Source of the DNA: Propionibacteriales bacterium
GTDB lineage: Bacteria > Actinomycetota > Actinomycetes > Propionibacteriales > Nocardioidaceae
DNA length: 64,000 bases
NCBI GenBank assembly: GCA_026392455.1
Contig: JAPLCB010000011.1
Coordinates: 186,001-250,000, forward strand
Reading direction: 5' to 3'
A program made the position numbers and the translations under genes. This document shows, piece by piece, positions 22,806-46,689 of this stretch. The first letter of the stretch is position 1. Each line of letters opens with the position of its first letter. The notes under the pieces are model-generated. The model did not search any database. It had not been told where the DNA came from and worked only from the letters and a program-made list of their open reading frames with translations.

Positions 22806-23027
22806 TTACTTGTACCGGTAGACGATCCGACCTCGCGTGAGGTCGTACGGCGAGAGCTCCACCACGACCCGGTCCTCAGGGAGGATCCGGATGTAGTGCT
22901 GGCGCATCTTGCCGCTGATGTGGGCGAGCACCTTGTGTCCGTTGGCCAGTTCGACCCGGAAAAAAGCGTTCGGAAGGGCCTCCAGGACGGAGCCCTCCAT
23001 TTCGATCACGCCTTCTTTCTTCGGCAT
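22806..23027 (-). CDS. infA: translation initiation factor IF-1
   Basis: A 73-residue S1/OB-fold protein, [27 protein letters not shown] ... [12 protein letters not shown]. It binds the ribosomal A site during initiation with IF-2 and IF-3. The ATG at 23027 has GGAGG 4 nt upstream. It is the first gene of the infA-rpmJ-rpsM-rpsK-rpsD-rpoA-rplQ run because the preceding genes lie on the other strand. Confidence 0.97.
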
Positions 23028-23344
23028 GTCCTCCACAATCTGTTGGCTTGGTGTCTACCGTTGACCCGGGAACCGCCTCACTCGGCAGGTGCCGTGCGAG
23101 TGGACCTCGTGAAACCGTTGGCATGACCCCAGATCCCACGCACGCGCACGCTCGAACATCTCGAGGCGGCGTGTTTGGGCAGCCGTACAGGTGCCACGCA
23201 ACGAACCCACGTTGGGCCGACGCACCAGTCTAGGGAATCCACGGGAAAATCACCAATCGCGGGACCGGGCCCGCAGCCGCCTCGTTACGGTTGGCTCCGG
23301 GTCGCTCCCCACCCGTCGACACCAGCTCCACCGAGAGGACCTCC
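23028..23344. other. divergent spacer between infA and the kinase gene
   Basis: A 317-bp stretch without a convincing gene. It holds the minus-strand infA promoter, which leaves a leader of nearly 200 nt before infA. It also holds a possible plus-strand -10 (TACGGT, 23286-23291) about 54 bp before the kinase start, with no good -35. The small ORFs listed here are shadows. Confidence 0.6.
23227..23256 (-). promoter_or_regulatory. putative promoter of the infA-rplQ operon
   Basis: On the minus strand TTGGTG (-35) and TAGACT (-10, fits TANNNT) are separated by 18 bp. Transcription would begin near 23220. This is the best sigma-70-like pair in the spacer. Confidence 0.5.
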
Positions 23345-24946
23345 ATGGCGGACTTTCCGCAGCCCGGCTCGACCCTGGGCCGGTACACGATCGTCGAGCC
23401 GCTCGGACACGGCGGCAGCAGCACGGTGTACCGGGCGACCCGCGGCCTGTCCCGCCAGGAGTACGCGCTCAAGGTGATCGGGAGCGAGCTCGCGGCCCGC
23501 CCGGGGTTCCGGGAGCAGTTCCTGGCCGAGGCGGACACCCTGACCCGGCTGAGGAGTCCGCACATCGTCGGTATCCACGACGCCGGGGAGAGCGACGGCA
23601 CCCTGTACCTGGCCACCGACCTGGTTCCCGGTGGCGACCTCGGTACCCGGCTGCTCCAGGGTGCTGTCCCGCTGCGAACGGCGTTGACGCTGGCGGCCCA
23701 GGTCGCGACGGCGCTCGCGGCAGCCCACGACGCCGGGATCGTGCACGGCGACGTGAAACCGGGCAACGTCCTGCTCGGCCAGCGCGACGGGCTCCCGCAC
23801 GCCTACCTCGCCGACTTCGGGGTCGCCCAGCCGGCCGGCGCCGGTGGCACCCGCCGCAGCGTCGTGGTCGGCACCTACGCCTACCTCGCCCCCGAGCTGA
23901 TCACCGGCGGCGCCGTCAGCCCGGCCAGCGACGTGTACGCGCTCGGGTGCCTGCTGGTCGCTGCCGTCACCGGGACCCCGCCGTACGGAGGCACCGACCA
24001 GGAGATCGCGCAGCAGCACCTGACCAGCGAGATCCCGCTCTGGGAGGCCACCTCTCCCCTCCTGGAGCACCTCAACGAGCTGGTCCGGACCTCGATGGCC
24101 AAGGATCCCGCCGCCCGGTACCCATCGGCCCGGGCGTTCGGCTCCGCGATCACCGCCGTCCTCGGCGAGGTCCCCAGCGTCGAACCCGTCCCCGCCGCCC
24201 CCGAACCGGCCCCGGAACCCGCTGCCGAATCCGCTGCGGAGCCCGCCGTCGAGCCTGTCCTCGTGGACGAACCCGAGCGGCCCCGGCGCGGCGGACGGGC
24301 ACTGGCCTCCAGCCTGGTCGCCCTGGTGGCCGTGGCGGCAGCCGTCGCCGGCATCGCGATCCTGCAGAGCGGCGACGACGACGGCTCGACGCCCGCTGCT
24401 GCCGCGCCGACCACCAGCAGCCCCACCCCCAGCACCACCAGTTCCCCGACCCCGGCACCCACGTCGTCGCCGACGCCAGGACAGACGAAGGTGTGCCAGG
24501 AAGGCCGCGAGATCAAGGCCGACCAACGCTGCGGAGAACCCTACGGTTTCGCCGGCCTGCGCTACGTCTTCTCGAACATCTCCGGCGACTGCACCCAGAA
24601 GAGCTCCACCAACGCGACCAACTACTGGGTGATCTCCTGCACCGTCGGCAGTCCGGACGGTGCGGCTCCGGCCGAAGTCACCTACACGATCTACCGCACC
24701 ACCAGCCTCGGACGCGAGACGGTCCAAGGAATGTTCCCGGGACAGGCGCCGACCACGGTGAGCAACGGCTTGCTCCAGTTCGGTCCGGTTCAAGAGCCCT
24801 CCGGACGCTCCACCATCGGGCTGACCTACCCCGAGAAGCACCCGTACGGGGTTCTGATCACTGCATCCAGCACCAGCGAGGCCCAGCAGCTCGCTGCGGC
24901 CACTGCCGCCGCCGCCCTCCCGCCGGAACGCTTCGTGGTCGAGTGA
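23345..24946 (+). CDS. membrane Ser/Thr protein kinase (PknB-like)
   Basis: A 533-residue kinase. The catalytic domain spans about residues 12-275: Gly-rich loop GHGGSSTVY, ATP Lys43 in YALKVIG, catalytic loop HGDVKPGN (Asp136; Gly replaces the Arg of HRD, so a non-RD kinase), DFG at 157-159. A Pro/Ala/Glu linker leads to one transmembrane helix (about 320-340). Outside lie a Ser/Thr/Pro linker and a domain of about 130 residues with several Cys that is not a PASTA repeat. ATG at 23345 with GAGAGGAC upstream. Its stop overlaps the PP2C start (GTGA), so kinase and phosphatase form one unit. Confidence 0.9.
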   Translation: MADFPQPGSTLGRYTIVEPLGHGGSSTVYRATRGLSRQEYALKVIGSELAARPGFREQFLAEADTLTRLRSPHIVGIHDAGESDGTLYLATDLVPGGDLGTRLLQGAVPLRTALTLAAQVATALAAAHDAGIVHGDVKPGNVLLGQRDGLPHAYLADFGVAQPAGAGGTRRSVVVGTYAYLAPELITGGAVSPASDVYALGCLLVAAVTGTPPYGGTDQEIAQQHLTSEIPLWEATSPLLEHLNELVRTSMAKDPAARYPSARAFGSAITAVLGEVPSVEPVPAAPEPAPEPAAESAAEPAVEPVLVDEPERPRRGGRALASSLVALVAVAAAVAGIAILQSGDDDGSTPAAAAPTTSSPTPSTTSSPTPAPTSSPTPGQTKVCQEGREIKADQRCGEPYGFAGLRYVFSNISGDCTQKSSTNATNYWVISCTVGSPDGAAPAEVTYTIYRTTSLGRETVQGMFPGQAPTTVSNGLLQFGPVQEPSGRSTIGLTYPEKHPYGVLITASSTSEAQQLAAATAAAALPPERFVVE

Positions 24947-25722
24947 CCGTGCCCGGGAACCACCCACCGGTGCCCGTCAGTGCCGGAGCGGCCAGCGACG
25001 TCGGTCGGGTACGCACGGCCAACCAGGACGCCTGGTGCATCACCTCGCAGGTGTTCGCGGTGGCGGACGGGATGGGCGGGCACCCCGCGGGTGACCGGGC
25101 CAGTCGGATCGCGGTCGAGGCCCTCGCCCGGATCGACGACGGGTCGGTCACCGTGGCCGACGTCCACCGGGCACTCGCCACCGCCAACCGGTCCATGATC
25201 GACGAGTCGCGGGGCCTCGACTCCCCGCGCGGCATGGGAACCACGGTCGCCGGCATCGCCGCGGTGGAGGTCGACGGCGCCGAGCACTGGGCGGTGTTCA
25301 ACATCGGCGACTCGCGGGTCTACCAGTGGCAGCGCGGCACCCTGGCCCAGATCTCGGTCGACCACTCGGAGGTCCAGGAGATGATCGACGCGGGGCGCTG
25401 GGACGCTTCCGAGGCCGCGGTCTACCCCCGGCGGCACGTGATCACCCGCTCGCTGGGGTCGCCCCGGGCCGGGGCCGCAGACACCTGGCTGCTCCCCCGC
25501 TCCGCTGACCAGCTCTTCCTGATCTGCTCCGACGGGCTCACCGGAGAGCTGGACGACCTCACCATCGCCGCGTGCCTCGCCGGACCTGGAGACCCGACCG
25601 AGCTGGCCCAGCACCTGGTCGATGAGGCCGTTGCCGCCGGCGGACGCGACAATGTGACGGCGGTCGTCGTCCGGACCGCTGCCGCAGCATCACCTCAACG
25701 CCTCCAGGAGGACCAGGCATGA
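24943..25722 (+). CDS. PP2C-family Ser/Thr phosphatase
   Basis: A 259-residue cytoplasmic phosphatase with the metal-binding motifs VRTANQDA, VFAVADGMGGHPAGDRAS, GMGTTVAGI, FNIGDSRVYQ, CSDGLTGEL and GGRDNVTAVVV. It would reverse phosphorylation by the kinase encoded immediately upstream, as PstP does for PknB. The true start is the GTG at 24943 overlapping the kinase stop; the 843-residue ORF is an artefact of an open frame through the kinase gene. It overlaps the FHA gene by four bases. Confidence 0.93.
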   Translation: MTVPGNHPPVPVSAGAASDVGRVRTANQDAWCITSQVFAVADGMGGHPAGDRASRIAVEALARIDDGSVTVADVHRALATANRSMIDESRGLDSPRGMGTTVAGIAAVEVDGAEHWAVFNIGDSRVYQWQRGTLAQISVDHSEVQEMIDAGRWDASEAAVYPRRHVITRSLGSPRAGAADTWLLPRSADQLFLICSDGLTGELDDLTIAACLAGPGDPTELAQHLVDEAVAAGGRDNVTAVVVRTAAAASPQRLQEDQA

Positions 25723-26540
25723 CCGAGACCCAGGTGTCCTACACCCCCGGTCCGGGGACCCTGCTCGCCCACGAGGGCCGCTACCTGCTGATCGACGCCA
25801 CCCCGACCGAGGCCACCGTCAGCCGTCTCTGGGCCGGGCTCAGCAGCGCCCCTTCTGGTCCCGAGCTCCTCACCATCGTCACCGACGAGCTCCCGGCCGC
25901 GGGCTACTGCCTGGTCGAGGTCGGCGACCAGGTCGAGGTGGCCCGCCGCGACGTCCGGACCACCTTCGACGGTCGCGCCGTCGACCTCGGTGGCCCGACC
26001 GCGACCGCACCGCCCCTGGTCAATCGGATCGTGGCCGCGCTGGCGTCGAGCGCCCGGGAGGCCCAGTTCCCGCTCACCAGTGGCGTGGTCGCGGCCTCGG
26101 CGCTGACCGTCCTCCGAGACCTGAGCGAGGTGGACGTGGCTGGCCTCCTGGCCGCGCTGCCGGCACCGACCGGCGCCGCCCGCACCCCCAGCAACGAACC
26201 CGCGCCGCTCGGCCACCTGCTCCTCGAGGACGGCACCGCCATCGAGCTGGACCGGCGCATCGTCCTGGGGCGTGCCCCCCGCGTGCCCGAGGGGGCCGCT
26301 GACCAGCCTCGCCTGGTCAGCCTGGCAGCCTACGGCCGCGACGTGTCCCGCCAGCACCTCGAGGTCGTCCTCCAGGACGGAGCCGCGTTCGTCCGCGACC
26401 TCGGGTCCGCCAACGGCACCCAGGTCCATGACCCCTTCGGTCGCACCACGGAGCTGGAACCCGGTACGGCGACGCCCTTGCAGCCGGGGAGCCGGATCGA
26501 GGTCGCCGAGGTCACGACCGTGTACTACCGCCCGGCCTGA
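25719..26540 (+). CDS. FHA domain-containing protein
   Basis: A 273-residue protein. The C-terminal FHA domain (about residues 165-272) has the phosphothreonine-binding residues in VLGRAPRV, DVSRQHLEV and GSANGTQV. The first 150 residues (GTLLAHEGRYLLIDATPTEATVSRLW ...) match nothing I recognise. It is translated with the phosphatase gene and probably reads the phosphorylation state set by the kinase/phosphatase pair. GGAGG precedes the ATG. It ends 13 bp before the convergent map gene. Confidence 0.88.
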   Translation: MTETQVSYTPGPGTLLAHEGRYLLIDATPTEATVSRLWAGLSSAPSGPELLTIVTDELPAAGYCLVEVGDQVEVARRDVRTTFDGRAVDLGGPTATAPPLVNRIVAALASSAREAQFPLTSGVVAASALTVLRDLSEVDVAGLLAALPAPTGAARTPSNEPAPLGHLLLEDGTAIELDRRIVLGRAPRVPEGAADQPRLVSLAAYGRDVSRQHLEVVLQDGAAFVRDLGSANGTQVHDPFGRTTELEPGTATPLQPGSRIEVAEVTTVYYRPA

Positions 26541-26553
26541 GCTGGCGGACCGG

Positions 26554-27378
26554 TCAGCGACCGCCCCAGGGAACGCCCAGCTCAGCGAGCTTCGCCTCGC
26601 CACCGTCCAGTGCGGTGAGCACCCAGGCGCCCTTCTCGGTGAGGGTGAAGGTGTGCTCGAAGTGGGCCGACCAGGATTCGTCGGTCGTGACGATCGTCCA
26701 GTCGTCCTCCGCGACCAGGGTGTGCTTGCTGCCCATGGTCACCATCGGTTCGACGGCGAGCGCCAGCCCGAGCTCGAGCTTCGCTCCCCTGCCGGCCTTG
26801 CCGTAGTTCGGCACGTTCGGCGGCTGGTGCATCTCGGTCCCGATGCCGTGTCCGGTGTAGTCCTCGAGGATGCCGTACTGACCGTGGGCCCGGACGTGGC
26901 TCTCCACGGCGTACGAGATGTCGGTGACCCGACCCCCGAGACGGGCGGCGGCGAACCCGGCCCACATCGACCCCTCGGTCACGTCGAGCAGCTTCTGGAC
27001 CTCGGCAGGGATCGTGCCCACCGGGACGGTGATCGCCGCGTCGCCGTGCCAGCCGTCGACGATCGCCCCGCAGTCGATGGAGATGATGTCGCCATCGACC
27101 AGCACCCGGTCGCCGGGGATCCCGTGCACGACCTCGTCGTTGACCGAGGCACAGATCGTGGCCGGGAACGGCGGGTGACCGTAGCCCTGGAACGACGGCA
27201 CGCCGCCGTGCGAACGGATGTGGTCCTCCGCGATCGCATCCAGCTCACCCGTGCTGATCCCCGACCGCACGGCCGCGCGGAGCACCTCGAGCGTCTCACC
27301 GACCAGCAGACCGGCGACCCGCATCAGCGCGATCTGCTCCGGGGTCTTGATCTGGATGCCGCGGTCGCGCAGCTTCAT
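26554..27378 (-). CDS. map: type I methionine aminopeptidase
   Basis: A 274-residue metallopeptidase that removes the initiator Met. Metal ligands are visible in ISIDCGAIVDGWHGDAA (two Asp), TGHGIGTEMH (His), AVEPMV (Glu) and FEHTF (Glu). The ATG at 27378 gives MKLRDRGIQIKTPEQI; the longer ORF runs into adk. It starts 7 bp after the adk stop, completing a secY-adk-map operon. Normally infA follows; here an opposite-strand signalling cassette intervenes. Confidence 0.96.
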   Translation of the reverse strand: MKLRDRGIQIKTPEQIALMRVAGLLVGETLEVLRAAVRSGISTGELDAIAEDHIRSHGGVPSFQGYGHPPFPATICASVNDEVVHGIPGDRVLVDGDIISIDCGAIVDGWHGDAAITVPVGTIPAEVQKLLDVTEGSMWAGFAAARLGGRVTDISYAVESHVRAHGQYGILEDYTGHGIGTEMHQPPNVPNYGKAGRGAKLELGLALAVEPMVTMGSKHTLVAEDDWTIVTTDESWSAHFEHTFTLTEKGAWVLTALDGGEAKLAELGVPWGGR

Positions 27379-39655: not shown

Positions 39656-40750
39656 TTGACGGACCCGAACGCCCCGACGCCCCCCGGAGCGCCGCCGCCC
39701 GGGTGGCCTGGACCCGCCGGCCAACCCGGCCAGCAGGCCTGGTTCCCACCGCCGAGCCCGTACGCTCCGCCGCCCCCGGGCTACCCGCAGTTCCGGATGC
39801 CCGTGGCCCACAAACCCGGCGCCATCCCGCTACGACCGCTCGGCCTGGGCGACATCTACGACGGCGCCTTCAAGATCATCAGGTTCAGCCCCGGTGCCAC
39901 GGTCGGCTCCGCCGTCCTGGTCACCGCCGTGGCGATGGCCATCCCGATCCTGATCACCAGCTTCCTGGCGACCCTCTTCGACCTGTCGTTGACGACGTTC
40001 GAGTCGACCCAGTCGAGCTCGGCCGAGGTCACCGACCTGATCGCTGCCAACGGCACCCTCCTGGGCGGGTCGGTCCTGCAGGCGATCGGCCTGATCTTCG
40101 TGACCGGGATGGTTGCGCACGTCACCGCGGCCGCCGCGATCGGGCGCCGGTTGTCGCTCGGCCAGGCCTGGGCAGCGACCCGAGGCAGCCGCGGCAAGCT
40201 CGTCGGGTTGTCGGTGCTTCTCGGACTGGGCACCGTGCTCTACCTCGGGGTGGCCGTCGCCGCGGTCGCGGTCCTCGCCGTCACCCTGCCCCCGACCTCG
40301 GCCATCGTCGTCGGCGTCCTGGCCGGCCTGGCCGCCCTGGTCGGGTTGGTCTTCCTCTGGGGCCGGGTCTACTACCTGGCCGTGCCGCCGCTGATGCTCG
40401 AACCAGTCGGCGTGCTGGCCGCGCTCGGGCGTTCCTGGCGGCTGACGTCCCGACAGTTCTGGCGCACCATCGGCATCGCGCTGCTGACCCTGATGATCAC
40501 CCAGGTCATCGGAGGCATCCTCAGCGTGCCGTTCACCATCGTCGGGACGGTAGCGACCTTCTCGTCCGGCGACAGCGAGCTCGGGCTGATCCTCTACCTG
40601 GTGACGACGGGCCTCGCAGCGGTCGTCTCGTCGGCGTTCGTGGCACCGTTCACGAGCGCCGTGACCACCCTGCAGTACCTCGACCTCCGGATGCGCAAGG
40701 AGGGGTACGACGTCGAACTCCTCACCCGGGCAGGCATCACCGGCTCGTGA
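39656..40750 (+). CDS. membrane protein (glycerophosphodiesterase membrane-domain-like)
   Basis: A 364-residue protein. The first 60 residues are Pro/Gly-rich (PPGAPPPGWPGPAGQPG), followed by LGLGDIYDGAFKIIRFSPGATVG and about six transmembrane helices. This matches the membrane protein that heads the MoxR/DUF58 cluster in many actinobacteria; its function is unknown. The start is a TTG at 39656 with a strong AAGGAGGAG 5 nt upstream; no ATG/GTG has a comparable site. The stop overlaps the DUF4129 gene start by four bases. Confidence 0.78.
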   Translation: MTDPNAPTPPGAPPPGWPGPAGQPGQQAWFPPPSPYAPPPPGYPQFRMPVAHKPGAIPLRPLGLGDIYDGAFKIIRFSPGATVGSAVLVTAVAMAIPILITSFLATLFDLSLTTFESTQSSSAEVTDLIAANGTLLGGSVLQAIGLIFVTGMVAHVTAAAAIGRRLSLGQAWAATRGSRGKLVGLSVLLGLGTVLYLGVAVAAVAVLAVTLPPTSAIVVGVLAGLAALVGLVFLWGRVYYLAVPPLMLEPVGVLAALGRSWRLTSRQFWRTIGIALLTLMITQVIGGILSVPFTIVGTVATFSSGDSELGLILYLVTTGLAAVVSSAFVAPFTSAVTTLQYLDLRMRKEGYDVELLTRAGITGS

Positions 40751-41352
40751 TCGGCGTCGACGCACCTCTCACCCCTTCCCCGGAGCAGGCGGACTCGCTG
40801 CTGCGCCGCGAGCTCCTCCGGCCCGAGTACCACGACGAGAACCCCCTGCAGCAGCTGTTGCGCTGGATCGGACGCCAGTTCGAGTCCGGGCTGGACCGGG
40901 CGTCGTCGGCGTCGCCCCTGGGCTCCCTGGGCGCACTCCTGGTCTTCCTGCTCGTCCTGGTCCTGGTGGGGTGGCTGCTCTCCCGTGCCCGTCGCACCGC
41001 CCGTCGGGCGCCGGACCGTGGAGCGGTCCTGACCGCTGAACCGACCACGGCCTCAGCGCTGCGCGCACGGGCCGTCGCGGCGCTGGCTCGCGGGGACGCC
41101 GGCGCAGCCGTCGTCGACGGCTTCCGCGCTGTCACCCTGCGCCAGATCGAGGCCGGCGTGCTCGACGATCAGCCCGGAGCAACGGCCCACGAGGTCAGCG
41201 TCGGCCTGGGGACCGCCTTCCCCGAGCGCCGGGCGAGGATCGATCAGGCCGCGAACCTCTTCGACCTGGTGCTCTACGGCGACCGGCCCGCGCGCCCTGA
41301 TCAGGCTGAAGCCGTTCTCGCCCTGGATGACGACCTCGCGGCGGTTCGATGA
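40747..41352 (+). CDS. DUF4129 domain-containing membrane protein
   Basis: A 201-residue protein with one transmembrane helix (LGSLGALLVFLLVLVLVGWLLS, about residues 55-76) and a cytoplasmic DUF4129 domain (ALRARAVAALARGDAGAAVVDGFRAVTLRQIEAGVL). GTG at 40747 overlaps the upstream stop; the 549-residue ORF extension is a shadow frame. Such proteins accompany MoxR-DUF58 and may be linked to transglutaminase-like or cell-envelope systems, though no transglutaminase gene is present here. Confidence 0.85.
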   Translation: MIGVDAPLTPSPEQADSLLRRELLRPEYHDENPLQQLLRWIGRQFESGLDRASSASPLGSLGALLVFLLVLVLVGWLLSRARRTARRAPDRGAVLTAEPTTASALRARAVAALARGDAGAAVVDGFRAVTLRQIEAGVLDDQPGATAHEVSVGLGTAFPERRARIDQAANLFDLVLYGDRPARPDQAEAVLALDDDLAAVR

Positions 41353-42527
41353 GTACCGCGAACACCGTGACCACCGCGGGCACCGCCTCCGGGACGACCC
41401 CGGCCCGACGACCGGGCTGGCTTCGGCAGCACCGCTCCTGGGCGCTGATCGCCGCTGCCGTGGTGGCCGCAACCGCGCTCGCTGTGGCCCAGGGCAGCGG
41501 CACGAAGTACGACGCACCCCTGGACCCCGGCAATGCCGGACCGTCGGGGGCGCGCGCCCTGGCGCAGGTGCTGGCGGACCAAGGCATCGACGTCCAGATC
41601 GTTCGCGATGCCGCGGCGTTCACGGACACGACCGTCGACTCCCGGACGACGGTGCTGGTCACCAGCACCCAGGACCTCGGCACCAGCACGGCGAGGCAGG
41701 TCGTCGCGCGGTCGACCGGTGCCGACCTGGTGCTGGCAGAGCCGGGGTTCGGGATCCCCGAGCTGTTCGGCTCCGAGGACGGGACCGGCTACTCGCGGAC
41801 CCGCACCGTCGAGGCCGGTTGTCCTGACCCCCTGCTCCGCGGTCTGCGCGCCGAGACCCGGGAGGGGACGCTGTTCCCAGCGACCGACGGCGCGTGCTTC
41901 GCCGACGGACCCGGGGCGCTGCTCACCGCTCCGCGCCCAGGGGTGCGCTTCCTCGGAGCAGCGGACGTCCTCAGCAACGAGCAGATCACCAGGGCCGACA
42001 ACGCGGCGATCGCACTGCGCCTGCTCGGTCAGCGCTCCCGCCTGGTCTGGTACGTCCCCGACCCGGCCGACCTGACCGGGGACGACGGCGTCAGCCTCGG
42101 CTCGTTGCTGCCCGGCTGGGTCCGACCGGGCCTGGTGATCGGAACCGTGTCCGTCCTCGCACTGATGGTGTGGCGCGGCCGACGCCTCGGTCCGCTGGCC
42201 AGCGAACCACTCCCGGTCACGGTCGCCGCGATCGAGACCACCCTCAGTCGAGGCCGGCTCTACCGCAAGGCCGACGACCGCGGCTACGCCGCCGACGCCC
42301 TTCGCCGGTCAGCCCGGGCCGAGATCGGCGCCCACCTGATGCTTCCCCGCAGGTCCGCGGACGACGTGGACCTGCTCGTCCGCATGCTCGCGGCGCACAC
42401 ACCGACCGAGCCGGGCCGGATCCGGGCCCTGCTCGGTCCGGGCGGGCCCGTACCGCAGTCCGACCGAGACCTGATCGCCCTGGCCAACGACCTGGCCGAA
42501 CTCTCCAGAGAGGTACGTCGTCCATGA
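41349..42527 (+). CDS. DUF4350 domain-containing membrane protein
   Basis: A 392-residue protein. An N-terminal helix (WALIAAAVVAATALAVAQG) anchors a domain with GNAGPSGARALAQVLADQGIDVQIVRDAAAF and a TTVLVTSTQDLG strand typical of DUF4350. A second helix lies at LVIGTVSVLALMVW (about 260). It overlaps both neighbours by four bases (ATGA). Function unknown; conserved in the MoxR cluster. Confidence 0.85.
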   Translation: MSTANTVTTAGTASGTTPARRPGWLRQHRSWALIAAAVVAATALAVAQGSGTKYDAPLDPGNAGPSGARALAQVLADQGIDVQIVRDAAAFTDTTVDSRTTVLVTSTQDLGTSTARQVVARSTGADLVLAEPGFGIPELFGSEDGTGYSRTRTVEAGCPDPLLRGLRAETREGTLFPATDGACFADGPGALLTAPRPGVRFLGAADVLSNEQITRADNAAIALRLLGQRSRLVWYVPDPADLTGDDGVSLGSLLPGWVRPGLVIGTVSVLALMVWRGRRLGPLASEPLPVTVAAIETTLSRGRLYRKADDRGYAADALRRSARAEIGAHLMLPRRSADDVDLLVRMLAAHTPTEPGRIRALLGPGGPVPQSDRDLIALANDLAELSREVRRP

Positions 42528-43522
42528 CCGAACATTCCCCCACCCCGGACACTGCGCCGACCGCGCCTGACCAGGACGAGGCCCGGGCACGGCTGACTGC
42601 CGTGCGCGCCGAGGTCGCCAAGGTCGTGGTCGGCCAGGACGCCGCCGTCTCCGGCCTGCTGGTTGCCCTGCTCTGCCGCGGGCACGTCCTGATGGAAGGT
42701 GTTCCCGGGGTGGCCAAGACCTTGCTGGTCCGGACGCTCGCGGGAGCCCTGGCCGTGGACACCAAGCGGGTCCAGTTCACCCCGGACCTGATGCCCGGCG
42801 ACATCACCGGTTCGATGGTGATCGACTCCCACGCCGGCGAGCTCTCCTTCCGCGAAGGGCCGCTGTTCACCAACCTGCTCCTAGCCGACGAGATCAACCG
42901 CACGCCCCCCAAGACCCAGTCCGCCCTGCTCGAGGCCATGGAGGAGGGGCAGGTCTCCGTCGACGGCGTCTCCCGGCAGCTCCCGCGGCCGTTCCTGGTG
43001 GCCGCGACCCAGAACCCGGTCGAGTACGAGGGCACCTACCCGCTCCCCGAGGCCCAGCTCGACCGCTTCCTGCTCAAGGTGGTCCTGCCGGTACCCGAAC
43101 GAGAAGCGGAGCTGGAGATCCTCCGACGGCACTCCAGCGGATTCGACCCCCGGGACATCGCCGGCGCCGGGGTCCGCCCGGTCGCCGGACCGGCCGACAT
43201 CCTGGCAGGGCAACGGGGTGTGGCAGCGGTCCAGGTCGCACCGGACGTCGCCGGCTACATCGTCGACATCGCTCGGGCCACCCGCACGTCACCGTCGTTG
43301 AGCCTCGGCGTCAGCCCCCGCGGCGCGACCGCGCTGCTGCACGCGGCTCGCGCGTGGGCCTGGCTCAGCGGACGCGACTTCGTGACCCCGGACGACGTCA
43401 AGGTGCTGGCCCACGCCACCCTCGCCCACCGGCTGGGCCTGCGCGCGGAGGCCGAGCTCGACGGAACCGATGTCCACCAGGTGCTCGCCTCGGCACTCGG
43501 CTCGGTTCCCGTCCCGCGATGA
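42524..43522 (+). CDS. MoxR-family AAA+ ATPase
   Basis: A 332-residue AAA+ chaperone-like ATPase: Walker A in MEGVPGVAKTLLV, Walker B LLLADEINR, sensor 1 ATQNPVEYEGTYPLPEAQLDRF, and sensor 2 region SPRGATALLHAARAWA. MoxR proteins act with von-Willebrand-type partners, here the DUF58 protein encoded next. The ATG at 42524 overlaps the DUF4350 stop; the 542-residue ORF is an open-frame artefact. Confidence 0.95.
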   Translation: MTEHSPTPDTAPTAPDQDEARARLTAVRAEVAKVVVGQDAAVSGLLVALLCRGHVLMEGVPGVAKTLLVRTLAGALAVDTKRVQFTPDLMPGDITGSMVIDSHAGELSFREGPLFTNLLLADEINRTPPKTQSALLEAMEEGQVSVDGVSRQLPRPFLVAATQNPVEYEGTYPLPEAQLDRFLLKVVLPVPEREAELEILRRHSSGFDPRDIAGAGVRPVAGPADILAGQRGVAAVQVAPDVAGYIVDIARATRTSPSLSLGVSPRGATALLHAARAWAWLSGRDFVTPDDVKVLAHATLAHRLGLRAEAELDGTDVHQVLASALGSVPVPR

Positions 43523-43535
43523 CCGAGCCGCGCTG

Positions 43536-44825
43536 ATGGCGATCAGCGGTCGCGTCCCGCTCCTGCTGCTGGCAGGGGTGGTCCCGGTCGTGCTCCGGCC
43601 CGGTTTCGCGACGGCGTGGTCCTGGATCCTGCTCGTCCTGCTCGCGGCCGCGGCGGACTGGTTGGCGGCACCGGCACCGGACAGGCTGGGTCTGACCCGG
43701 TCCGCCGACACCCGGGTCCGGCTCGGCGAGGACACCAGCACCGTCCTGACGGTGACCAACCCGAGCGGCCGTCGGGTCCGGGGGGTGCTCCGGGACGCCT
43801 GGCAACCGACAGCAGGCGCCTGCGGGAACCGGCACCGGCTCACTCTGGACGCTGGCGGTCGGAGTCGACTGACCACCGCACTGCTGCCGGTACGGCGCGG
43901 GGACCTGCGGGCCGTCGGAGTGACCGTCCGCAGCTTCGGACCCCTGGGTCTGGCAGCGCGTCAGCGGACGACGACGGTGCCAGGGACCGTCCGAGCACTC
44001 CCCCCGTTCGGCTCGCGCAAGCACCTGCCGAGCCGGCTGGCCCGGTTGCGTGAGCTCGACGGTCGGTCAGCGGTCCGTCTCCGGGCCCCGGGAACCGAGT
44101 TCGACTCGTTGCGCGAGTACGTACGCGGCGACGACGTCCGCAGCATCGACTGGCGCGCAACCGCGCGCAACCGCAACGTCGTGGTCCGTACCTGGCAGCC
44201 CGAACGCGACCGACGGGTCGTCCTCGTCCTGGACACGTCGCGCACCTCGGCGGGCCGGGTGGCCGACGTACCGCGGCTGGACTCGGCCATGGACGCTGCC
44301 CTGCTCCTGGCAGCCCTGGCAGCGCGCGCCGGCGACCGGATCGACTTCCTCGCCGGCGACTACCAGGTGCGCAGTCGGCTGCGGCTCTCCGGGACCGACG
44401 TGGTCGGCCGCCTCCAGGACGCGATGAGCACGGTGAACCCGATCATCGCGGAGGCCGACTGGTCGGCGCTCGCCGGTGCGATCGCCCAGCTCGGACGACA
44501 GCGCGCCTTGGTCGTCCTGCTCACTCCCCTGGAGCCGTCGGCGATCGAGGAGGGTCTGCTGCCGGTCCTGCCGACGCTGGCCCGCCACCACCACGTGGTG
44601 ATCGCCTCGGTGAAGGATCCGGCGCTGGAGGAGATGGTCGGCGCTCGCGACGACGTCGACGAGGTCTACGGCGCCGCAGCCGCCACCCAGGTACTGGTCC
44701 GTCGCCGGCGAACCGCCGAGGTCCTCTCCGGGCTCGGGGTCGAGGTCGTCGACGCGGACGCCGAGCGGTTGCCACCGGCGCTGGCCGATCACTACCTGAT
44801 GCTCAAGGCCCTCGGCCGACTCTGA
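43536..44825 (+). CDS. DUF58 domain-containing protein
   Basis: A 429-residue protein with two N-terminal hydrophobic segments (VPLLLLAGVVPVVL, AWSWILLVLLAAAADWLAA), an Ig-like middle part, the DUF58 signature FDSLREYVRGDDVRSIDWRATARN, and a vWA-like fold with a partial MIDAS (VLVLDTSRTS). It is the usual MoxR partner. The start ATG at 43536 lies 13 bp after the MoxR stop. It ends 3 bp from the convergent SpoIIM-like gene. Confidence 0.9.
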   Translation: MAISGRVPLLLLAGVVPVVLRPGFATAWSWILLVLLAAAADWLAAPAPDRLGLTRSADTRVRLGEDTSTVLTVTNPSGRRVRGVLRDAWQPTAGACGNRHRLTLDAGGRSRLTTALLPVRRGDLRAVGVTVRSFGPLGLAARQRTTTVPGTVRALPPFGSRKHLPSRLARLRELDGRSAVRLRAPGTEFDSLREYVRGDDVRSIDWRATARNRNVVVRTWQPERDRRVVLVLDTSRTSAGRVADVPRLDSAMDAALLLAALAARAGDRIDFLAGDYQVRSRLRLSGTDVVGRLQDAMSTVNPIIAEADWSALAGAIAQLGRQRALVVLLTPLEPSAIEEGLLPVLPTLARHHHVVIASVKDPALEEMVGARDDVDEVYGAAAATQVLVRRRRTAEVLSGLGVEVVDADAERLPPALADHYLMLKALGRL

Positions 44826-44828
44826 CCG

Positions 44829-45824
44829 TCAGTGGGCGGTGGCGACCCGGTCCTCGAGCAGGGACGCGTCGATGTCACCGGTCTCCCCGCGGGCGTACGC
44901 CGCCCGGCCGACGATGAACACGTAGGCCAGGAACGCCAGCTCGGCCGTCGCGCCGATCGCGATCCGTCCCCAGGTCGCCAGCGGGGACGGCGTCACGAAG
45001 CCCTCGATGGCACCGCTGACGAGGAGGACGACGACCAGACCCAGTGCGATCGTGGCGGCGGTACGGCCCTCGCGGGCGACGGACTGCGTGCGGGTCGAGG
45101 ACCCCGGCTCGATCCAGGACCAGAACAGCTTCAGCCCGACGCCCCCGGCCACGAAGACCGCCGTCAGCTCCAGCATGCCGTGCGGCAGGATCAGACCCCA
45201 GAAGTGGGCGGCGTGATCGTGCCGGATCATGATCGACCCGATCACGGCCAGGTTGGCGACGTTGTTGAACAAGAGGAACACCACCGGCGCCCCGAGGATC
45301 CCCAGGGCCAGGCAGAGCGCGGCCACCCAGGCGTTGTTGACCCAGACCTGCAGCGCAAAGTGGCTCGAGGCGTAGGTGCTGTAGTAGTCCTCGAAATCCT
45401 GGTTGACCAGCTGGTCGATCTCCCGAGGGCTCATCAGGGACTGCTCGGCTGCCGGATGCTGGAGCAGCCAGACGATCATCACGGCGACCACCGCGACGTT
45501 CACGAGCAGGCAGCCGATCCACCAGCGGCGCAGCCGGTACAGCGCAGCCGGGAACGCATCGGTGAAGAAGTGCGCGACGTTGCGCCAGGTCGTCACCCGC
45601 GTTCCCACAGCGCGGCTGCGCGATCGTGCGAGCACCGAGGAGAGGTAGGCCACCACCGAGGCGTCCGGGGCCGAGGTACGCACCACGGAGAGATGGGTGG
45701 CTACCTGCTGGTAGCGCTCCACCAGCTCGTCGCTCTCGACGCCCGACAACCGGCGCCGGCGACTGAGCTGGTCGAGGCGGTCCCACTCGTGCCGATGCGC
45801 GATCACGTACGCATCGAGGTCCAT
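44829..45824 (-). CDS. stage II sporulation protein M-like membrane protein
   Basis: A 331-residue member of the SpoIIM/DUF95 family. A helical cytoplasmic part (YVIAHRHEWDRLDQLSRRRRLSGVESDELVERYQQVATHLS) precedes about six transmembrane helices, including WWIGCLLVNVAVVAVMIVWLL and the conserved NNVANLAVIGSIMIRHDHAAHFWGLILPHGMLELTAVFVAGG. In non-sporulating actinobacteria its role is unknown. The ATG at 45824 lies 7 nt from a TAGAGT -10 box. Divergent from the RDD gene. Confidence 0.88.
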   Translation of the reverse strand: MDLDAYVIAHRHEWDRLDQLSRRRRLSGVESDELVERYQQVATHLSVVRTSAPDASVVAYLSSVLARSRSRAVGTRVTTWRNVAHFFTDAFPAALYRLRRWWIGCLLVNVAVVAVMIVWLLQHPAAEQSLMSPREIDQLVNQDFEDYYSTYASSHFALQVWVNNAWVAALCLALGILGAPVVFLLFNNVANLAVIGSIMIRHDHAAHFWGLILPHGMLELTAVFVAGGVGLKLFWSWIEPGSSTRTQSVAREGRTAATIALGLVVVLLVSGAIEGFVTPSPLATWGRIAIGATAELAFLAYVFIVGRAAYARGETGDIDASLLEDRVATAH

Positions 45825-45831
45825 GACCACT

Positions 45832-45837
45832 ACTCTA
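45832..45837 (-). promoter_or_regulatory. -10 box of a leaderless promoter (SpoIIM-like gene)
   Basis: TAGAGT on the minus strand ends 7 nt before the ATG at 45824. Confidence 0.55.
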
Positions 45838-45863
45838 GGACGCCGTTCCCGAACGACCACGCC

Positions 45864-45869
45864 TATGCT
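45864..45869 (+). promoter_or_regulatory. -10 box of a leaderless promoter (RDD gene)
   Basis: TATGCT ends 7 nt before the ATG at 45877. Together with the box at 45832 it forms a compact divergent pair of promoters in 52 bp. Confidence 0.55.
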
Positions 45870-45876
45870 TGTCGCG

Positions 45877-46689
45877 ATGTCGGTCCCGAGCGAGTACGCA
45901 CCCCTGACCGCCGACGACCTGGTCACCGGCGAGGCGGTAGCGCTCGACCTGCCGGCAGCGTCCTTCGGGTCCCGGCTGGCCTCCGGTCTGATCGACCTGC
46001 TCGCGACCGCGGTCACCGCGATCGTCGTGGTGACCGCGATGGGGATGCTGGCCGACGGCGCGGACGACGCCCTGCTGTGGGCCTCGATGATCGCTGCGCT
46101 GATCATCATCTTCCTGGTGGTCCCGACCACGATGGAGACGCTGACCCGCGGCAAGTCGTTGGGCAAGCTGGCCCTGGGCCTGCGGACCGTCCGCGACGAT
46201 GCCGGCCCCATCTCTGCCCAGCACGCCTTCGTACGCGCACTGATCGGGTTCGTCGAGATCTTCCTGCTCAGCGGTGTCCCGGCGTTCTTCTCCGCACTGC
46301 TCAGCGAGCGCGGCAAACGGCTCGGTGACCATGCCGCGGGCACCTACGTGATTCGCGAGCGGTTCACCGCCAGCTTCCCGGCGCCAGCCCCGATGCCACC
46401 CGAGCTTGCCGGTTGGGCCCGGACCGCGGATGTCGCGCCGCTACCGGTCGCCGTGGCCCTCGGTGCCCGGCAGTTCATCGGACGCGCTGCCCAGCTGAGC
46501 CCCCAGGCCCGGACCGACCTGGGAGTTCGGATCGCCGGACAGCTCCAGCCCTTCGTCTCACCACCCCCGCCCGCGGGGACCCACCCCGAGACCTTCGTCG
46601 CGGCGGTCCTGGTGTCTCGCCGCGAGCGAGACCTGGCCCGGTTGTCCCGGGAGGAGAACCTGCGCCGGAGGCTGTTCAGCCGCTCCTGA
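45877..46689 (+). CDS. RDD-family membrane protein
   Basis: A 270-residue protein. The RDD domain has the Arg and Asp residues in SFGSRLASGLIDLLATAV and a later RGKSLGKLALGLRTVRDDAGP, with three or four helices. A soluble C-terminal part of about 110 residues follows (ALGARQFIGRAAQLSPQARTDLGVRIAGQL). RDD proteins are transporters or accessory membrane proteins of uncertain role. The last 14 bp overlap convergent trmB. Confidence 0.88.
   Translation: MSVPSEYAPLTADDLVTGEAVALDLPAASFGSRLASGLIDLLATAVTAIVVVTAMGMLADGADDALLWASMIAALIIIFLVVPTTMETLTRGKSLGKLALGLRTVRDDAGPISAQHAFVRALIGFVEIFLLSGVPAFFSALLSERGKRLGDHAAGTYVIRERFTASFPAPAPMPPELAGWARTADVAPLPVAVALGARQFIGRAAQLSPQARTDLGVRIAGQLQPFVSPPPPAGTHPETFVAAVLVSRRERDLARLSREENLRRRLFSRS

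Follow-up and report, generated by a model that had tools for sequence, protein, structure and literature searches.

A kinase-phosphatase-FHA signalling cassette of apparently mosaic origin in the map-infA gap of a Nocardioidaceae genome, beside a conserved infA leader

Why genes for a protein phosphorylation unit should be located between map and infA, among the ribosomal genes, is the question raised by this locus of a Propionibacteriales bacterium. In the window, i.e. the whole stretch of 64,000 nucleotides that was analysed, the infA-map interval contains only the genes for a kinase, a PP2C-type phosphatase and an FHA protein (Table 1), with predicted products of 533, 259 and 273 amino acids, respectively. 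Four-base overlaps join the kinase and PP2C genes (24943-24946) and the PP2C and FHA genes (25719-25722), and 13 bp separate the stop of the FHA gene from that of map, the start codon of which was picked with a codon model. The kinase start lies approximately 110 bp from the -10 box of infA, and the divergent promoters must therefore be close. Matches to Pfam were obtained for all three products (Pkinase, 1.2e-43; PP2C_2, 7.3e-14; FHA, 3.4e-09). These open reading frames and matches agree with the initial annotation, in which three plus-strand genes with four-base overlaps had been placed between map and infA, and the complete domains and motifs are consistent with its description of a signalling unit inserted in this gap. 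Scanning of the cassette gene borders for sigma-70 promoters and terminators yielded nothing useful.

Table 1. Features of the map-infA region, in positions of the window
Feature	Position	Strand	Evidence
infA (IF-1), divergent from the cassette	22806..23027	-	Pfam eIF-1a, 1.4e-29
infA 5' leader, conserved, candidate structured RNA	23028..23221	-	A3 alignment, R1 match, f23 leaders
-10-like box TAGACT, presumed infA promoter	23227..23232	-	Aligned in 57 family genomes
Ser/Thr kinase gene, transmembrane, PknB-like lineage, non-RD (HGD)	23345..24946	+	ORF, Pfam, kinase tree
Kinase outer (C-terminal) domain, four Cys, predicted alpha/beta fold	24485..24943	+	AlphaFold2, aligned Cys
PP2C-type protein phosphatase gene, GTG start	24943..25722	+	Pfam, NCBIfam, tree
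FHA protein gene, N-terminal domain of unknown fold and C-terminal FHA	25719..26540	+	Pfam, trees, alignment A4, structure prediction, fold search
map (methionine aminopeptidase), convergent with the cassette	26554..27378	-	Pfam Peptidase_M24, 7.3e-42

First, the cassette was examined for its catalytic and sensory parts. The ATP-site Lys, the Glu, the catalytic Asp and the DFG motif were all observed in the kinase translation, and a protein combining a Pkinase domain with this Lys, Asp and DFG would be classed as a Hanks-type Ser/Thr kinase. The signature motifs of PP2C and FHA were also present in the respective translations, and the catalytic and phosphopeptide-binding motifs of the cassette thus appear intact. 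The kinase is of the non-RD type because its catalytic loop reads HGD; this part of the initial annotation holds for the window copy but not as a fixed trait, as the orthologue in the congener G019 (72% over the kinase domain) has HRD at this position. One membrane segment was recognised by eye at approximately 24300-24370, and the outer domain comprises 153 amino acids with four Cys. No PASTA domain was detected in the cassette kinase using Pfam, and the score against the PknB-family model of NCBIfam (NF033483) was 217 bits, with a cut-off of 450. The external Cys-containing domain annotated in place of PASTA repeats was therefore confirmed, and, because the outer domain is of another kind, the input to this kinase is not that of PASTA repeats. 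The outer domains of the window and G019 kinases are 52% identical; weaker relatives were found in G186, also in a kinase, and in G266, in a membrane protein, and the four Cys align in all four proteins. An alpha/beta fold was predicted for this domain using AlphaFold2 (pLDDT 80.8, pTM 0.78). A fold search of the PDB gave no match at E <= 0.001: the best match, 3v7b (DIP2269; TM 0.42, E 0.025), is weak and not significant, and the similarly weak match to the PknH ectodomain (4esq; TM 0.37, E 0.37) ranks below it.

Second, the map-infA gap serves the family as a cargo slot, the content of which varies between genomes. The genus of the window was sampled with 24 genomes, comprising that of the window (G000) and 23 congeners. 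Among these 24, the FHA protein was found in G000 and G019 only, and the cassette is shared by one of the 23 congeners, again G019, minus the phosphatase. The G019 slot encodes a phosphodiesterase-like lipoprotein, the kinase and the FHA protein; the lipoprotein gene (L050:3275-4432), located ahead of the kinase, was named by inspection from its likeness to type I phosphodiesterases. PP2C is absent from this slot, and the 207-bp kinase-FHA gap, inspected by eye for a PP2C remnant, has stops in all three forward frames and no PP2C-like stretch, suggesting that the phosphatase is either not essential to the unit or has been lost. In six congeners the map-infA gap is gene-free and 232-288 bp in length. 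Other congeners carry an amidotransferase, an LLM flavin oxidoreductase or an alpha/beta-hydrolase-like gene in the slot, and G006 and G012 carry MoxR, DUF58 and transglutaminase genes. Family-wide (loci L050-L089 and L195-L247), the slot is empty in many genomes or is occupied by glutamine amidotransferase, flavin oxidoreductase, TerC, a PFNA-like cluster and more, these names being based on gene-to-gene similarity and on sequence recognition by eye. Thus, the view that map and infA are normally neighbours applies to part of the family, whereas genes lie between them elsewhere.

The PFNA cluster of Bifidobacterium comprises pkb2, fn3, aaa-atp, duf58 and tgm, with prpC and fha in some species (PMC8430577); in the present study, PFNA likeness refers to the actinobacterial relatives sampled, and the bifidobacterial cluster was compared by description only. 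A PFNA-like cluster occupies the slot in at least 11 of the 29 Nocardioides-type (g6) genomes examined, a count that should not be read as a frequency because the sample was partly picked for FHA matches near infA. In these slots, FHA and kinase genes run antisense to the ribosomal genes, followed by genes for an FN3-like giant protein, MoxR, DUF58 and transglutaminase. The recurrence of a related FHA-kinase pair in this slot and in the same orientation indicates that the address is a recurrent one. Relatives were also observed at other sites. On contig C9 of G028, PP2C-FHA-kinase genes adjoin the gene for a giant protein; ribosomal genes were not recognised within the 18 kb, and map and infA are on a different contig. 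In G051, the full PFNA-type cluster and map are likewise on different contigs. A second Nocardioides cluster, with PP2C and FHA followed by an RDD-like gene, was noted near rpsL/fusA/tuf (L206:575-3865, L202, L204). In the window itself, MoxR-like (42524-43522) and DUF58-like (43536-44825) genes belong to a group at 39797-46166, between the S10 cluster and tuf, which is conserved in G240 (MoxR, 85%).

Third, the three cassette proteins differ in ancestry. The FHA proteins of the window and G019 group with PFNA-type FHA proteins, both in the slot and away from it (97/95 and 98/95), and a position of the window protein nearer to the slot proteins was not separated from one nearer to the off-slot proteins (support 60/2; AU p of 0.208 for the alternative). 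In alignment A4, the window protein lacks the zinc-ribbon linker (CxxGH...CRVC) that the G019 protein (414 aa) has in common with other PFNA-type FHA proteins. The phosphatase, which scored 190 bits against the Stp1/IreP model of NCBIfam (cut-off 230), groups with the PFNA-type enzymes of G028 C9 and the G051 cluster (97/94), and this group is split from the PstP side at 100/100; the closest enzyme is that of G028 C9 (52%). For the kinase, 59 relatives were searched with the kinase domain. The window kinase was placed with PknB-like kinases of G186, G024, the second G019 kinase and a kinase on contig C8 of its own genome (100/98), and was split from the sampled PFNA-like kinases at 100/100. 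The C8 kinase of the same lineage (L094:484-2010) looks degenerate, with VDD and GVN at the HRD and DFG positions, and is probably a pseudokinase. Membership in the PASTA/PknB and PstP families was ruled out by the NCBIfam score and by the kinase and PP2C trees. Based on these three placements, the cassette would be a reduced, kinase-swapped PFNA-type module; as judged from the trees, it is a chimera of a PFNA-type phosphatase and reader with a kinase from another, PknB-like lineage. The six nearest genomes were not separated in a species tree built from three proteins, and one acquisition is therefore indistinguishable from two.

Herein, we propose that the three genes encode a self-contained switch for envelope signalling, namely a reduced PFNA-type module with a swapped kinase, and that the map-infA gap accommodates it as a permissive cargo slot; we regard this explanation as probable. 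The PP2C and FHA proteins would derive from an actinobacterial family of kinase-FHA-PP2C clusters with FN3, MoxR, DUF58 and transglutaminase, and the PknB-like kinase from elsewhere; the cassette would have landed, or been left, in the permissive slot. At the cell surface, the four-Cys domain might sense a wall or other extracytoplasmic cue and tune the cytosolic kinase, which would phosphorylate cytosolic targets, itself or both. Phosphothreonine produced by the kinase could then be bound by the FHA protein, which would relay the signalling state, and the co-encoded PP2C would reset it. Because the insertion ended just short of the infA promoter, infA would retain its ancestral promoter and leader. 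The gene order speaks against a reduced PFNA-type module, being kinase-PP2C-FHA here and FHA-kinase without PP2C in the Nocardioides slot.

Several known systems resemble the cassette in part. It is similar to PFNA in that its PP2C and FHA proteins group with those of PFNA-like actinobacterial clusters, its transmembrane kinase has a variable outer region, and such a cluster occupies the same slot in Nocardioides-type genomes. It differs from PFNA in the other lineage of its kinase, in its gene order and in the absence of the FN3, MoxR, DUF58 and transglutaminase half from the locus. In mycobacteria, PknB, PstP and FhaA/FhaB provide a membrane Hanks-type kinase, a PP2C and an FHA protein that are encoded together. 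The cassette joins the same three kinds of protein, but has no PASTA repeats, and PstP- and PknB-type genes are located elsewhere in the genome. The PpkA-PppA-Fha switch of type VI secretion also combines a kinase, a PP2C and an FHA reader in one locus. The cassette would work alike in principle; however, no type VI secretion genes were recognised beside it, and the score against the VI_FHA model was 12 bits, compared with a cut-off of 120. Signalling units of this kind are known; the present one is of mosaic origin and occupies a site that is unusual but tolerated.

The alternative with the best standing concerns the origin of the cassette and not its function. Rather than descending from the PFNA-like cluster of the slot, the cassette might be an independent insertion into a hotspot, with FHA and PP2C drawn from an off-slot PP2C-FHA-kinase cluster. 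The off-slot G028 enzyme as the nearest PP2C, a kinase unrelated to the slot kinases, the empty slot in near congeners and an AU test compatible with a clade of window and off-slot FHA proteins are consistent with this alternative, whereas the slot and antisense orientation shared with the Nocardioides FHA-kinase pair, and the presence of the complementary cluster half in the slots of G006 and G012, argue against it. We consider an independent insertion quite possible, although we hold it only tentatively. The initial annotation had also speculated on growth-rate or translation control, from the location of the kinase next to secY and the ribosomal genes. In a fuller form of this idea, the unit, as a neighbour of the infA-rpoA operon, would phosphorylate initiation or ribosomal factors and be co-regulated with them. 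The related FHA-kinase pair in the same slot of the Nocardioides-type genomes and the proximity of the kinase start to the infA -10 box might suggest such a role. However, the slot carries unrelated cargo in most relatives, the cassette is missing in 22 of the 23 sampled congeners, and the infA leader is conserved regardless of the cassette. Moreover, the relatives in G028 and G051 lie away from ribosomal genes, which is the very observation named in advance as speaking against a direct tie to translation. A translation link of the cassette is thus unlikely, and this specific form of it highly improbable. Finally, relocation of the PknB/PstP/FhaB-type cell-wall kinase unit of the genome has a close to negligible probability, as the resemblance of the kinase domain to the PknB family (217 bits) is outweighed by the lack of PASTA domains, a score far under the cut-off, a separate locus (L108) of the same genome that encodes both a PknB-like kinase and a PstP-type PP2C, and trees that set both kinase and PP2C apart.

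The preferred explanation, a signalling switch in a permissive slot, leaves infA with the upstream region common to its relatives. The initial annotation had attributed to the inserted genes an infA promoter and a long leader of its own; both are present but are not due to the cassette, as the TAGACT box and a leader of approximately 200 nt are conserved in 57 family genomes with or without it, including those with a gene-free gap. The cassette was therefore rejected as the creator of either element. A sigma-70 consensus scan reported no promoter at the -10-like box. Alignment of the leader from 35 genomes (A3) revealed long invariant blocks and one covarying hairpin, in GAGGTCCAC...GGTTCCCGGG. 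Between the arms of this hairpin from the same genome, 3.53 of 5 positions were paired, as against 2.61 once the arms had been shuffled (sd 0.098; 95 leaders), with identical loops counted once and related genomes not down-weighted. The alignment contained 30 double-sided changes, compared with 12.9 after shuffling, all of them confined to one helix and to three of its pairs; the remaining helices show so little variation that covariation could hardly be seen in them. Within the window, a covariance model (R1) built only from the family of the window had a single strong match, which fell on the infA leader (154 bits). When 148 genomes of the class were scanned at E <= 0.01, matches were obtained in 17, comprising eight of the family, eight of a second family (f23) and one weak match in another genome, where the fetched DNA contained no infA. 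All eight f23 matches are located directly upstream of infA. Absence elsewhere means little because the scan was strict and sampled. An Rfam search of the window gave no match at the gathering score, and the sole permissive match was to an unrelated miRNA family (E 4.3). The folding stability of the window leader is not unusual (z-score -0.16), its single-sequence fold being no better than those of shuffles, and the conservation could in part reflect a protein-binding DNA site. S4-type ribosomal leaders have been described upstream of rpsM/rpsD operons in other phyla, with infA not mentioned (Eckert et al. 2020, PMC7247131). Similar to these, the infA leader heads a cluster that also holds rpsM, rpsK, rpsD and rpoA; unlike these, it matches no Rfam family. 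We give a little better than an even chance to the hypothesis that the leader is a structured cis-regulatory RNA of a family not described before, heading infA and rpsM-rpsK-rpsD-rpoA in at least two actinobacterial families, with the cassette inserted just outside and the leader left intact; speculatively, the operon may be tuned by one of its products, for instance S4 or IF-1.

Thus, the results suggest that a PFNA-type module can exchange its kinase and yet keep a phosphatase and an FHA reader of one family, and that the map-infA gap is a tolerated landing place within a ribosomal gene cluster that is rigid elsewhere. The infA leader is more novel than the signalling cassette and, should it prove to be a regulatory RNA, would constitute a control element of actinobacterial infA-rpoA genes that is unlisted in the collections searched.
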